Below are positions 21,786-57,374 of a stretch of 64,000 bases of DNA, piece after piece. Below the pieces are notes generated by a model. It did not search any database. It had not been told where the DNA came from and saw only the letters and a program-made list of their open reading frames with translations. The DNA lies in assembly GCF_002161055.1 (NCBI RefSeq), contig NZ_NFLT01000001.1, forward strand, positions 248,001 to 312,000. Direction: 5' to 3'. Made by a program: the position numbers and the translations under genes. Positions within the stretch are counted from its first letter, which is position 1. Every line of letters begins with the position of its first letter. The DNA is from Tyzzerella sp. An114. Its GTDB lineage: Bacteria > Bacillota > Clostridia > Lachnospirales > Anaerotignaceae.

Positions 21786-21831
21786 ATTTAATTTTACCTC
21801 CAAATATTTTATTAGCACGTTATCTTTATTT

Positions 21832-21962
21832 TGTAAGCCCGATTTCTCAAACTCTTTGTTAAAGACCTGCGTCCCTGTGCTAATGGGCGGGAAGCATCCG
21901 CCGAAAACTTCGATAACTTCCACCTCGTCAGCCAATATCTGCACTATGGCTCTGGCGCTTAA
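21832..21962 (-). ncRNA. glmS ribozyme-riboswitch
   Basis: The minus-strand leader contains the conserved glmS ribozyme core in order: the cleavage-site element AGCGCCAGAGC, TGACGAGGTGG, TTATCGAAGTTTTCGGCGG, ATGCTTCCCG, a P3-type CCC/GGG stem around GCACA, and the AACAAAGAG 3' domain closing with CGGGC. Glucosamine-6-phosphate acts as cofactor for self-cleavage 5' of the G at 21958 (between 21959 and 21958), after which the mRNA is degraded. The 3' limit is approximate. About 50 nt separate it from the glmS start codon. Confidence 0.95.
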
Positions 21963-22067
21963 AAATACAATTTATTTATTAAAACTAACCTCCCTATTAA
22001 ATATTCTCTGTGCAGAAGGATTTATAAATTTATAAAAAACCATTATTATGGATTTTTATACTTTTGA

Positions 22068-51685: not shown

Positions 51686-53176
51686 TTATACCGGGAAAAG
51701 GACATAAGAATAAAGGAGTGCAAGTAAACAGTATACAACCCACAATATACATATAGGTTTAAATACTTTTCTCATAATAAGGCCTTCCTGTCCTCTAAAG
51801 CCAACTGTTGCACATACAGCAACAACATTGTTTGTACAAATCATGTTACCTAAAGCACCTCCAGCACTCTGTGCTGCAAATACAACAGGAACATTAAATC
51901 CTAATATATTACAAGCCTCATAATGCATAGGAGCAAAAAGTATATTTGAACCTGTTGTTGTACCAGCAACGAATGAACCAAGTGAACCGATAATAACAGC
52001 AACTGCTGGATAAACAGGACCAAGCACATCTGCAAGTGCTTTTGCTATTATTGAGAGAAGTCCACCAGATTTCATAAGGTTTGAAAGAGCAACAAGAGCT
52101 GCCATAGCTATAAGTGCGCCGAATACACTTAAGAAAGCTTCTTTCATATGTTTAGGCATAGCAGGTATATCTTTTAATATAACTGCTGATACAAGACAGA
52201 CACAAGTAATTGTTATACCAATCCAAACAGCAAATCCAAGTCCTATAAACCAGTCAGGAGCAAAAAATCTTACTGTTGGAAGAGCTACAAGAAGTATACC
52301 ATAAGCTGATAAAGCTTTATAGGCAGGCATTGTACTTCTTGGTTTTGTTGGGTCAGGAACATATCTATGTTCTTCTGGAACTACTTCATTTTTACAGAAA
52401 AGTTTTATATATAATATTGATACAACAAGTGAGCCTAATCCAGCACATATTGTAGGGAATTCAGCACCTACAAATGTAGCTACAAGAACCATACATCCAC
52501 CATATGCAAATCCTGTTACAAGAGCAAATTTAACAATTCCCTTATCTATTGCTTTTCTACCCCAAAGAATAACAAGAACTAATATTGGTGCAATTAATGA
52601 ACCAAAGAAATGGATAAATGATGTATATCTTGATATTTCCATAACATCTACAATAGGAGGATTAGTTGATACGAAAGCAGCAAAACCACCTATTGTTGTA
52701 AGACCAGCAGCACCTAATGATGCAGCAATACCATTAAAAACAAGTGCGCCAACTACTGCTGAAAGTGGAGGTATACCAAGTGCAACAAGGAATGGTGCAG
52801 CAATAGCAGCAGGAGTACCAGCACCTGCAACACCTTCAAGGAAACCACCAAAACAGAAAGCTATAATTATAAACTGTTTTCTTCTGTCAACAGTAAGGTC
52901 TGCTATAATTTCTTTAATTTTATCCATTGCACCTGTATTTATAAGAAGGTTAAGCACAAGGAATGCTGACCAAATCATAAATACCATTTTGGCACCTTCA
53001 ATCATACCATTTGTTGTCTGTGCAATTATAACACTATTTTCCATATGGAAATAAAGCATTCCAAGGAATATAGTATATATAAGTGATATTACAGAAACGA
53101 TTGTAGCAGGTTTTTTAAGACCTACAACACCTATTATTACAATGGCTATAGGCGAAATTGCTAATAATAGTTCCAT
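51686..53176 (-). CDS. L-lactate permease family transporter (LctP)
   Basis: 496 residues and about 12-13 membrane segments, somewhat shorter than the roughly 530-550 residues of typical LctP. Marks: GGFLEGVAGAGTPAAIAAPFLVALG, SLGAAGLTTIGG, GSLGSFVAGTTTGSNILFAPMHYEACNILGF and AAQSAGGALGNMICTNNVVAVCATVG. The family carries lactate or glycolate with protons. It is the third gene of pct-VOC-permease, which supports lactate uptake or export linked to CoA transfer. Gap to the VOC gene 117 bp with no terminator. Confidence 0.9.
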   Translation of the reverse strand: MELLLAISPIAIVIIGVVGLKKPATIVSVISLIYTIFLGMLYFHMENSVIIAQTTNGMIEGAKMVFMIWSAFLVLNLLINTGAMDKIKEIIADLTVDRRKQFIIIAFCFGGFLEGVAGAGTPAAIAAPFLVALGIPPLSAVVGALVFNGIAASLGAAGLTTIGGFAAFVSTNPPIVDVMEISRYTSFIHFFGSLIAPILVLVILWGRKAIDKGIVKFALVTGFAYGGCMVLVATFVGAEFPTICAGLGSLVVSILYIKLFCKNEVVPEEHRYVPDPTKPRSTMPAYKALSAYGILLVALPTVRFFAPDWFIGLGFAVWIGITITCVCLVSAVILKDIPAMPKHMKEAFLSVFGALIAMAALVALSNLMKSGGLLSIIAKALADVLGPVYPAVAVIIGSLGSFVAGTTTGSNILFAPMHYEACNILGFNVPVVFAAQSAGGALGNMICTNNVVAVCATVGFRGQEGLIMRKVFKPICILWVVYCLLALLYSYVLFPV

Positions 53177-53293
53177 AAAGAACCCTCCTAACCCGTGTAG
53201 TAAAACTTTATAACATTGTCATTTAGTCATTGCAAATAAATACAAAAATTTATTCAAACTAAAACATTATACCATATAAATATGTATTAAAAA

Positions 53294-53710
53294 TTAATCT
53301 CTTTTAATTTCTCCAACTGTCTGAACAAGTTCAACAAGTATTCCGTGAGAATATCTTGGTCTTAAGAAGTTTACAATAATATCACTTGTTCCTTCAACAG
53401 GAGCTTTTTCAAGCATTTCAAATCCTCTATCAATAAGTTCTTTACTGCAAGCTTCAATATCATCTACTTCAAAAGCGATGTGAGCAATACCACCTTTACC
53501 ATTATTGAATTTTGTAAGAACTCCTTCTTTAGGTATAATGAATTCTATTGGGCTTTCTTTTTCGCCGTATTTTGTGAAAATAAGGTCAGCATGATAAGCA
53601 TTAACAAATCCTTTATAATCAACTTCAAGACCAAACATATCAATTAAATCTTGTGCATAAGATAATTCTGGTAAAACAATTCCAACATGGTGCATTCTCA
53701 TAGGTTTCAT
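53294..53710 (-). CDS. VOC-fold protein, methylmalonyl-CoA epimerase-like
   Basis: 138 residues with two paired beta-alpha-beta-beta-beta units. Likely metal ligands are His8 in MHHVGIV, the His in GGIAHIAFEVDDIEA and the Glu in GILVELVQ. The GGIAHIAFEVDDI segment is very close to methylmalonyl-CoA epimerases, and the length fits. GGAGG before the ATG at 53710 fixes the start. It sits between pct and the lactate permease, 31 bp after pct. No methylmalonyl-CoA mutase is in the window, so an epimerase acting on another 2-substituted acyl-CoA, such as lactoyl-CoA, is an open possibility. Confidence 0.82.
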   Translation of the reverse strand: MKPMRMHHVGIVLPELSYAQDLIDMFGLEVDYKGFVNAYHADLIFTKYGEKESPIEFIIPKEGVLTKFNNGKGGIAHIAFEVDDIEACSKELIDRGFEMLEKAPVEGTSDIIVNFLRPRYSHGILVELVQTVGEIKRD

Positions 53711-53741
53711 AATATCATCCTCCATTTAATTAATCAAATTT

Positions 53742-55292
53742 TTATTTTATACCCATAATTTCATCTTTAAATATTCTCTCATCCATAACCCTTAAATCAC
53801 CTATAATAGGTTTAAAATCCATAAGGTCAATAATTTGTGTTTGTACATCTATTCCCGGTGCAACCTCTGTAAGATGAACACCGTCTTCTTTAAGTTCAAA
53901 AACAGCTCTTTCAGTTATATACATAACAGTCTGTCCTTTTTTGTTAGCATAGTTTCCGCTGAAAGTAATCTGTTCAACATCTTTTATAAATTTCTTTTCT
54001 CGTCCTTCCTGAAGTATCTCAACTTTTCCATCACCGGATTTTATTTTTAATCCTCCAGCAGTGAAAGTACCACAGAATATAACTTTCTTTGAATTTTGTG
54101 TTATATTTATAAATCCGCCACATCCGGCAATTCTTGGACCGAAACGGCTTACATTTATATTTCCTTTTTCATCACATTGAGCAAGTCCAAGGTATGCTAT
54201 ATCAAGTCCGCCTCCGTCATAGAAGTCAAACTGATAAGGTTGGTCAAGAAGACAATCAGGATTTAATGAAGAACCAAATCTAAGCCCACCCTGAGGTATT
54301 CCTCCAACAGGCCCAGACTCTACGGTAAGAGTCATATAATCTCCAATTCCTTCTTCAGCAGCAACCTTAGCAACATATTCAGGAGCACCAATTCCAAGGT
54401 TTACAGCACTTCCCTCTGTAAGTTCCATAGCTCCTCGTCTGCCTATGATTTTCTTTGCATCTAATTTTACAGGTTTAACATTATCTCCTGTTTCCTCTCT
54501 TATCTCACCTGTAAGAGCCGGATTATAATCACAGTCAAAACTCTGTTGATGGTCTATTGGGTCAGCCACAACAACGGCTGATACACATATACCTGGTATT
54601 TTTACAAGTTTAGGGTCAAGTGTTCCTGCTTTAACAACCTTTTCAACCTGTACAATAACAGTTCCACCTCTATTGCTTACAGCTTGTGCAACAGATGTAC
54701 CTTCAAGAGGAGTTATCTCTCTTTCAAAACTTATATTTCCACATTCATCAGCATATGTAGCTCTTATAAAAGCAATATCTATTGGATAAGCCTTATAAAA
54801 AATCTGTTCTGTTCCTTCTATCTCAATTATTTTTGATAAATCGTCTTTTGTAATGCTGTTAAGTTTTCCCCCGCCATTTCTAGGGTCAACGAATGTTTCA
54901 AGTCCTACCGTTGTTATTGTTCCAATTTTATTTCCTGCCAAGTCTCTAAACATATGAAGGAGAGTTCCCTGAGGAATGTTATATCCTTCAATTTTGTTAT
55001 CAAGGGCAAGCTGTGCAAGTTTTGGAGCTGTGTTCCAATGTCCTGCAATGGCTCTTTTTAAAAGTCCCTCATGAGCAAGATGGTCAGCTCCTCTGCCGTC
55101 TCTATTTCCCTGAGATGCAGCATATATAAGAGTAAGATTTTTAGGAGAACCTGTTTCAATAAATCTTTCTTCCAGTGCTTTACAAAGTGCTTCCGCATTA
55201 CAAGAGGCAACAAATCCACTTGTCGTAATAACGTCACCGTCCTTTACCAAATCGGCCGCTTGACGGGCAGTTAATATTTTTACTTTTTTCAA
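53742..55292 (-). CDS. pct: Propionate (acetate/lactate) CoA-transferase
   Basis: 516 residues, the fused alpha-beta class I CoA-transferase. The start KKVKILTARQAADLVKDGD, SQGNRDGRGADHLAHEGLLKR, DPRNGGGK, and FGPRIAGCGGFINITQN are nearly as in C. propionicum Pct, as I recall it. The catalytic glutamate is Glu325 in LTVESGPVGG. It exchanges CoA between propionyl-/acetyl-CoA and lactate or other short acids. I choose the TTG start at 55292, 7 nt after GAGGAG, which gives the family's N-terminus; the frame is open seven codons further. It is the first gene of pct-VOC-permease, with a long leader. Confidence 0.93.
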   Translation of the reverse strand: MKKVKILTARQAADLVKDGDVITTSGFVASCNAEALCKALEERFIETGSPKNLTLIYAASQGNRDGRGADHLAHEGLLKRAIAGHWNTAPKLAQLALDNKIEGYNIPQGTLLHMFRDLAGNKIGTITTVGLETFVDPRNGGGKLNSITKDDLSKIIEIEGTEQIFYKAYPIDIAFIRATYADECGNISFEREITPLEGTSVAQAVSNRGGTVIVQVEKVVKAGTLDPKLVKIPGICVSAVVVADPIDHQQSFDCDYNPALTGEIREETGDNVKPVKLDAKKIIGRRGAMELTEGSAVNLGIGAPEYVAKVAAEEGIGDYMTLTVESGPVGGIPQGGLRFGSSLNPDCLLDQPYQFDFYDGGGLDIAYLGLAQCDEKGNINVSRFGPRIAGCGGFINITQNSKKVIFCGTFTAGGLKIKSGDGKVEILQEGREKKFIKDVEQITFSGNYANKKGQTVMYITERAVFELKEDGVHLTEVAPGIDVQTQIIDLMDFKPIIGDLRVMDERIFKDEIMGIK

Positions 55293-55508
55293 ATGAATAC
55301 TCCTCCTCTGCAAAAATTTTATGACAGCTACGGCGGTAAATGGTTAGTTAGGGTTTAGGAATCTTATTGTAATATTATGTTTTATGATGTAAATTTTTAA
55401 AATGTTTTTTATTACTGTAAGAGTTAAATAAGTCGTCAGTTTTATTATTTTTATTGTGTTAAAAACTAAATACTTTTTTCCTTGGTTTGTTTGCCGTAGC
55501 TGTTTTAC
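55293..55508 (-). promoter_or_regulatory. Structured 5' leader of the pct operon (candidate cis-regulatory RNA)
   Basis: On the minus strand ACAGCTACGGC (55493-55503) and GCCGTAGCTGT (55324-55334) are perfect 11-bp inverse arms, 158 nt apart. The 5' arm starts about 5 nt after the predicted transcription start, and the 3' arm ends about 20 nt before the GAGGAG ribosome site. The enclosed RNA would be very poor in G and includes a C-rich CCTAAACCCTAACTAACC tract and a small ACTG/CAGT stem. No known riboswitch core was recognised. The closing-stem layout is that of a regulatory leader; the function is inference. Confidence 0.5.
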
Positions 55509-55514
55509 ACTTTT

Positions 55515-55520
55515 ATTATA
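55515..55520 (-). promoter_or_regulatory. -10 box of the pct operon
   Basis: TATAAT on the minus strand at 55515-55520; the matching -35 (TTATTT, 17 bp upstream) is weak, which may mean an activator is needed. The start would be near 55508. Confidence 0.5.
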
Positions 55521-55651
55521 GCCTCTACACAATTTGAAATAAAATACCAGTTATTGACTGATATTGAAACAATAAATTCAATAAAAACGATAAAATTTTG
55601 TGTATATTTGTAATTATACCTGTTTTTTATACACTTTTTATATTAATTAAT

Positions 55652-55676
55652 ATTGAATTCAATTGAATTCAATTGA
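55652..55676. repeat. Palindromic TTGAATTCAA tandem repeat
   Basis: TTGAATTCAA occurs twice in tandem (55653-55662 and 55663-55672 region) followed by TTGA, forming a perfect palindrome in the pct / HTH-protein intergenic region. It shares AATTGAATT with the palindrome at 55765-55783. It is a candidate operator. Confidence 0.55.
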
Positions 55677-55737
55677 TTTTTTATATATTTTTATAACGAA
55701 AAACATTAATATAAATGAAAATCTACTTAAAATTATT

Positions 55738-55880: not shown

Positions 55881-57374
55881 ATGAAATATGGTGAACTTCT
55901 AAAAAAACTTATTGTTTTTACTAATACAAAAATGGCGGTACTGGCAAGAGAAACCGGTTATGATATATCATACATAAGTAAATGGTGTAATAAAGGGCTT
56001 CTTCCTACCCCTCGAACAATATCTGTTATAAACAAGAAACTTTCTAAAGTTTTTGCTAAAGAAGTGATTTCTCAAGAAAGAGAAGATGACTTTTTTTTTG
56101 ATTTTGAAGATGTTATACTTCCTGCGGACGAAACAAGTGAAGATTACTGTATACAATTTGCAGAAAATATAGAGTCAGCACTTAATTCATGTTACAGAAG
56201 TTCATCAGGAAATGATATTTCAAAAAATTCAACAAAACCTGAAAATTTTCCTTCATTAACAAAAAAACAAGTTTTGGAAAATATAATTAAAAAAATAAAT
56301 AATGTAATAGAAAACTCTACTGATGATGTTAATATACTTTGGTCTGTTGATATTTGTAAATGTCTCAAATATATAAACACTCTTGACCCTTTATTAGAAA
56401 ATCCAAATATAAAAATAAAATTTCACATTGCCCTTGATATTGATGAGTTCAATGGTAATTCCCTTTCATACATAAAAGAGATTTATATGCTTATAAATAA
56501 TAATAACAATATATATTTTAATTTTTATGACGGCAGAGAACTTAAAAACGCAAATGTTATTGCTGTAAAAAATTCATTTGCAGAATTTATATCCTATGGA
56601 AATGATGGGCATATGGACTTTGGAGTAAGTATAACAGATGAAGATGATGTAAACAAAATATATTCATTCTTTAAATACAAATTCAAATCCCAAAGTCTCC
56701 TAATTCACAGTTGTTCTTCTGAGGAATTAAGTAAAAAATCATACAGAACAGATTTTTATTCAAGAACAAAATTCAATTTCTTTATAACAACAGGATTTGA
56801 ATTTTTATTGCCTGCAAGTGTTATAGATAACATTGTTGAAACAGCTAAAGAACAAATTCCTTATGACAATATAGAAGCTATGATACGTAATCTTCAGATT
56901 ACATGGGAAGAAATATTTGAAAAACGTCAAATAACATTCTTCATTTTAAGTTCTTCCGTTTTAAAATATATAAGCAATGGAGAAATATTCTATACAGATG
57001 TTATATATAATCTCACTGTTGATGAGAGAATGGAACATCTCAAAAAGATTATAGATATATCAAAGAGAAATCCAAATATAAGATTTGCTGTGATAGATGA
57101 TGAAGCAGTATTTTCAAACAACTATTCATTATTATTATCGGTTTTTGCCAACGACAAAAAAGCTTTCCTTAAAAACCACAAAGCATACAGAACAGGAAAA
57201 GGGCCAAATCTCTATACAATAAATAATAAATATATTGTATCAAGTATAAATGAATTTGCCTCCAAAACAATTGAAAATCAAACAGTCTGTCAGGAATATA
57301 ATGCAGAGTCATTAGAAAAACTTCTTGAAGAATATGGAACAATGGTTTATAGAATGATGAATATAGGCTTATAA
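55881..57374 (+). CDS. Large HTH protein of unknown family
   Basis: 497 residues. Residues 1-60 look like a helix-turn-helix domain (AVLARETGYDISYISKWCNKGLLPTPRTISVINKKLSKVF). The rest, about 430 residues, shows no motif I know: it is mixed alpha/beta, rich in Asn, Lys, Ile and Phe, without membrane segments or a signal peptide. An acidic linker lies at about 68-85. It is divergent from the pct operon and has its own strong promoter overlapped by a palindrome, so a regulator of itself and pct is plausible, with the large part as sensor. GGAGG precedes the ATG. A terminator follows. Confidence 0.75.
   Translation: MKYGELLKKLIVFTNTKMAVLARETGYDISYISKWCNKGLLPTPRTISVINKKLSKVFAKEVISQEREDDFFFDFEDVILPADETSEDYCIQFAENIESALNSCYRSSSGNDISKNSTKPENFPSLTKKQVLENIIKKINNVIENSTDDVNILWSVDICKCLKYINTLDPLLENPNIKIKFHIALDIDEFNGNSLSYIKEIYMLINNNNNIYFNFYDGRELKNANVIAVKNSFAEFISYGNDGHMDFGVSITDEDDVNKIYSFFKYKFKSQSLLIHSCSSEELSKKSYRTDFYSRTKFNFFITTGFEFLLPASVIDNIVETAKEQIPYDNIEAMIRNLQITWEEIFEKRQITFFILSSSVLKYISNGEIFYTDVIYNLTVDERMEHLKKIIDISKRNPNIRFAVIDDEAVFSNNYSLLLSVFANDKKAFLKNHKAYRTGKGPNLYTINNKYIVSSINEFASKTIENQTVCQEYNAESLEKLLEEYGTMVYRMMNIGL

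Follow-up and report, generated by a model that had tools for sequence, protein, structure and literature searches.

The segment upstream of pct, a propionate CoA-transferase-type gene on the minus strand, very probably encodes a genuine leader RNA in which a perfect 11-bp stem (P1) encloses a G-poor core of 158 nt. With roughly even confidence, we read this leader as a 5'-terminal clamp, or message stabiliser, placed behind a promoter that would be controlled by a divergent regulator, a reading drawn from sequence comparisons. Below, "the window" denotes the whole stretch of 64,000 nucleotides that was analysed.

The P1 arms and the pct operon

The pct gene is followed by a VOC protein gene and a lactate permease gene. 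The operon and the arms of P1 are laid out as follows.

51686..53176, minus strand: lactate permease
53294..53716, minus strand: VOC protein, methylmalonyl-CoA epimerase-like
53742..55292, minus strand: pct, propionate CoA-transferase type, TTG start
55300..55306, minus strand: Shine-Dalgarno of pct, GGAGGAG
55324..55334, minus strand: P1 3' arm, GCCGTAGCTGT; perfect complement of the 5' arm, conserved in the sister species, unique in the genome
55493..55503, minus strand: P1 5' arm, ACAGCTACGGC; perfect complement of the 3' arm, conserved in the sister species, unique in the genome

The TTG start codon of pct (55292-55290) lies downstream of GGAGGAG, and no upstream open reading frame was seen in the leader on inspection by eye. 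In other members of the family, pct adjoins lactoyl-CoA dehydratase-type genes.

The preliminary description had reported perfect 11-bp arms around 158 nt, which the coordinates 55324-55334 and 55493-55503 confirm. It had also called the enclosed segment G-poor, and indeed the 158 nt contain 8 G, with 1.3% of the same-size stretches of the window being as poor. Its proposal that P1 fits both the transcript start and the ribosome site held at the 5' end, as the 5' arm begins 12 nt past TATAAT, about 5 nt past the start site predicted from this -10 box. At the other end, the 3' arm stops 17 nt upstream of GGAGGAG and 31 nt upstream of the TTG start, so that "just before" the ribosome site was slightly generous.

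The 2.75-Mb genome contains just two copies of the 10-mer CAGCTACGGC, one in each P1 arm, and genome BLAST revealed the leader segment as a single copy. When the intergenic region was dinucleotide-shuffled 2000 times, 32 of the shuffles yielded a stem as strong as P1. Therefore, the stem by itself is only moderately beyond chance, and is suggestive.

Conservation in a sister species

Only one other genome of the family carries the same operon and leader, that of a sister species of the same genus (G002, record CALWGF010000013.1). The two Pct proteins are 93.6% identical and 35% of the pct fourfold-degenerate sites differ, which provided a neutral yardstick. Against this, the stretch from TATAAT through the P1 5' arm is identical, and 10 of the 11 bases of the P1 3' arm are kept. 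Furthermore, a 57-nt block located just before the P1 3' arm is free of substitutions and differs from G002 by a single 1-nt indel, an inserted A.

55337..55393, minus strand: conserved 57-nt block, TTTACATCATAAAACATAATATTACAATAAGATTCCTAAACCCTAACTAACCATTTA

The remainder of the leader interior is far more diverged between the two species. Because the arms, the promoter and the 57-nt block are kept while over a third of the fourfold-degenerate sites of pct have changed, the leader is under selection. Relative to shuffled sequences, z for minus-strand folding was -2.4 (window) and -1.7 (G002), and folding of the plus strand was no better than shuffles (z = -0.5).

Over a sharply bounded tract of about 1.8 kb (51930-53725), which takes in the VOC gene together with most of the lactate permease gene, identity to G002 rises to 97-100%, compared with roughly 80-90% in the flanking sequence. 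This high identity and the sharp edges point to a recent exchange or recombination. Such an exchange does not account for the conservation of the leader, as the tract ends 1.6 kb away and the intervening pct gene is 73-94% identical per 100 bases.

Promoter and divergent regulator

Conservation around the start of the leader outlines a promoter and candidate control sites facing a divergent gene.

about 55508-55510, minus strand: predicted transcription start, 5-7 nt after the -10 box
55515..55520, minus strand: -10 box TATAAT, invariant in four close operons, with no good -35
55534..55581, minus strand: conserved element upstream of the promoter, proposed to bind an activator in place of a -35
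55651..55681: conserved palindromic repeats ATTGAATTCAATTGAATTCAAT, where the divergent regulator is proposed to have its operator
55881..57374, plus strand: divergent regulator with a weak XRE-type HTH, linked to pct/VOC/lactate permease operons

The conserved palindromes and the promoter-upstream element make the divergent HTH regulator the most likely controller of transcription. Beyond its weak XRE-type HTH, this protein had no match in Pfam, NCBIfam or solved structures. Its homologues were found in 12 of the 58 family genomes, where they repeatedly adjoin pct, VOC or permease genes, which suggests that the gene at 55881-57374 represents an undescribed family of regulators of lactate/acyl-CoA operons. 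In pct/VOC promoters of genus g3, and likewise in those of G311 from another family, a shared TTGATTTCATT-like element precedes the -10 box by about 30 nt (L067-L069, L075-L077). This element is likely an operator of the regulator. We discounted a second promoter within the leader, as its -10 box is broken in G002 (TACAAT to TACAAA) though the spacer is fully conserved.

A stem at the same position in another genus

In two genomes of another genus, g7 (G078 and G030), a homologue of the regulator faces a VOC gene located behind a closely similar promoter, and in G078 a lactate permease gene follows the VOC gene. At the g7 loci (L080 7464-7895, L065 and L066), VOC is driven by this promoter and regulator, followed in L080 by the permease, and pct is absent from the front. 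This absence suggests that pct was either acquired or lost at the front of the operon.

We compared the strongest helix whose 5' strand begins within the first 20 nt. In all four species it starts 12 or 13 nt after the -10 box (12 nt in the window, 13 nt in both G078 and G030), with different sequences: ACAGCUACGGC/GCCGUAGCUGU in the window, ACAUCA/UGAUGU in G078 and ACAGCAAU/AUUGUUGU in G030. When the four species were aligned, basal pair 4 was G-C, G-U or U-A and basal pair 6 was U-A or A-U, so that two of the six basal P1 pairs show compensatory changes (four sequences, basal pairs only). The covariation score was reached by 25 of 500 shuffles. Paired bases filled 95.8% of the alignment cells versus 10-63% when partners were slid, a control that is favourable by construction because the g7 3' arms were chosen by pairing. 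Taken singly, the g7 stems were not better than shuffles (fractions 0.445 and 0.10); the weight for P1 is carried by the common start position and the compensations, not by the single g7 stems.

A different stem at the same position, with compensatory changes, argues that P1 is an RNA stem rather than the end of a mobile element. The RNA that it encloses in g7 is a hairpin of 30-40 nt unrelated to the 158-nt core, and not all distant operons of the same regulator have a 5' stem (G029_C117 and G004_C9 are without one). Together with the single copy, the conservation in G002 and the homologous position in another genus, the basal-pair covariation supports the original proposal that P1 closes an undescribed leader RNA.

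The enclosed core

Two weak helices were predicted within the core from the two sequences available, those of the window and G002.

55464..55475, minus strand: P2 5' side, AAGUAUUUAGUU; one compensatory pair, two sequences only
55430..55441, minus strand: P2 3' side, two-sequence consensus
55410..55415, minus strand: P3 5' side, GUAAUA, invariant and hence without covariation
55369..55374, minus strand: P3 3' side, UAUUAC, invariant, two-sequence consensus

The C/A-rich tract CCUAAACCCUAACUAACC is invariant and mostly unpaired in the fold models of both species.

The range of the core was examined using blastn against the 58 family genomes, exact 18-mer matching in a collection of GTDB species, and covariance-model searches of 58 family, 392 order and 391 class genomes. 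None of these searches found the core outside the window species and G002; the large covariance searches used strict filters and may therefore have overlooked very diverged copies. Several matches were rejected: a BLAST match in G088 (8e-9), an AT-rich chance match without arms that adjoins unrelated genes; two other 18-mer matches inside G/T-rich simple repeats; and weak covariance-model matches in G038, G021 and G204 (E 0.04-0.6 per genome), treated as chance. The covariance search of related leaders that had been called for thus returned the core in two species. A pct operon without paired arms, which had been named as evidence against the leader, does exist: more distant pct operons lack the element, among them the pct-VOC operon of G005. 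This limits the range of the leader, and the evidence within the two species stands.

Alternative explanations

P1 might instead close a riboswitch, that is, an aptamer sensing lactate, lactoyl-CoA, propionyl-CoA or a related compound. A closing stem near the ribosome site, a highly conserved inner sequence and a metabolic operon would suit this explanation, and when P1 was blocked in the fold model of G002, a conserved UUCCU paired with the Shine-Dalgarno. However, this pairing is absent from the window species' own fold, and about half of the shuffled interiors equalled the anti-Shine-Dalgarno pairing of the interior in duplex energy. No terminator-like site was found in the leader, nor any relevant Rfam match at curated or permissive thresholds, in agreement with the initial statement that no riboswitch core was recognised. 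The sole Rfam match in the window was a full-length glmS ribozyme/riboswitch at 21811-21970 on the minus strand. Moreover, no species beyond the two sisters was found to carry the core, and where relatives share the promoter and regulator, a stem is present but not the core. Among the features of riboswitches, P1 covariation was observed (four sequences, basal pairs), whereas a match to an aptamer family, a core in diverse species and an expression platform were not. As the leader lacks a terminator, an Rfam match and anti-Shine-Dalgarno pairing above chance, a riboswitch is not supported and we consider it distinctly unlikely; the metabolite sensor suggested at the outset was thus not borne out.

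P1 could also merely present the C/A-rich tract as the target of a trans-acting RNA-binding protein or small RNA, or as a Rho loading site, with control exerted on translation, decay or premature termination. The invariance and exposure of the tract in both species and the excess of C (26) over G (8) in the 158-nt interior speak for this possibility, although no complementary RNA was found, genome BLAST gave no second match of the tract, and 0.8% of same-size window stretches are equally G-poor and equally C-containing, which makes composition weak as sole evidence. We regard it as rather unlikely. If the arms and the block were DNA sites, serving either as operators for looping or to bound a segment that inverts, the spacing of the arms would be apt, at 168 and 167 bp in the two species (close to 16 helical turns in both), and a promoter-like match lies within the segment. 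Yet the arm sequence is found nowhere else in the genome, the segment has the same orientation in the window and G002, the final T of the promoter-like match is not kept in G002, and the nearest tyrosine recombinase, the type covered by the search, is about 90 kb away. As the g7 covariation also fits RNA, this explanation seems very improbable. Inverted ends flanking a short non-coding segment could finally mark a small mobile element, a view that had already been argued against, and the check for multiple copies bore this out with one copy and unique arms. Since the segment occupies the same site in the sister species and its ends match the promoter and the ribosome site, a mobile element is extremely improbable.

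A proposed 5' clamp behind a probably regulated promoter

In the clamp model, the divergent HTH regulator would probably switch transcription through sites overlapping and upstream of the promoter, which has a perfect -10 and a poor -35. P1 would then clamp the extreme 5' end of the transcript, as supported by covariation across two genera, and would most likely shield the long operon message from RNases that depend on the 5' end (J/Y type), presumably leaving the ribosome site open. In the genus of the window, the clamp would enclose the G-poor core with its two weak helices and its C/A-rich tract, to which a protein or small RNA probably binds, modulating stability or translation. As expected of a 5' mRNA-stabilising stem, the helix lies near the predicted transcript 5' end, 12-13 nt after the -10 box in four species. 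On the other hand, a pure stabiliser would not need the invariant 57-nt core, which would count against a clamp alone. A bolder view, which we hold to be rather unlikely, takes the core for a novel G-poor regulatory RNA of narrow distribution. It would control the operon once the divergent regulator has licensed transcription, either by sensing lactate or a CoA thioester or through a protein dedicated to it.

Stem-loops in the 5' UTR are known to stabilise bacterial mRNAs, such as recA of Acinetobacter baumannii, vacA of Helicobacter pylori and ermC derivatives of Bacillus subtilis (PMC7509114). P1 resembles these in lying in the 5' UTR, close to where the mRNA is predicted to begin, and in leaving the downstream ribosome site free. 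Unlike these stem-loops, which have a short loop, P1 closes a conserved 158-nt core, and its stabilising effect is putative. The long-range helix around a conserved multi-helix core ahead of a metabolic operon recalls riboswitch leaders closed by a P1, for example the glmS of the window, but the pct leader has no expression platform or family match, is present in two species and has a G-poor core. The operon encodes the same enzyme class as the acrylate-pathway pct loci of Anaerotignum (PMC10053330); in contrast to those, this pct is associated with VOC and lactate permease genes, a divergent regulator and a P1 leader.

The leader provides a small example of a 5' closing stem that is kept by compensatory change while the RNA that it encloses is replaced between genera and the promoter and regulator are conserved. 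Should the core turn out to be a sensor, this would be, as far as our search of the open-access literature shows, the first report of a leader RNA for such lactate/propionate operons. Otherwise, the P1 leader would be a candidate for use as a native 5' stabiliser when propionate-forming Clostridia are engineered.
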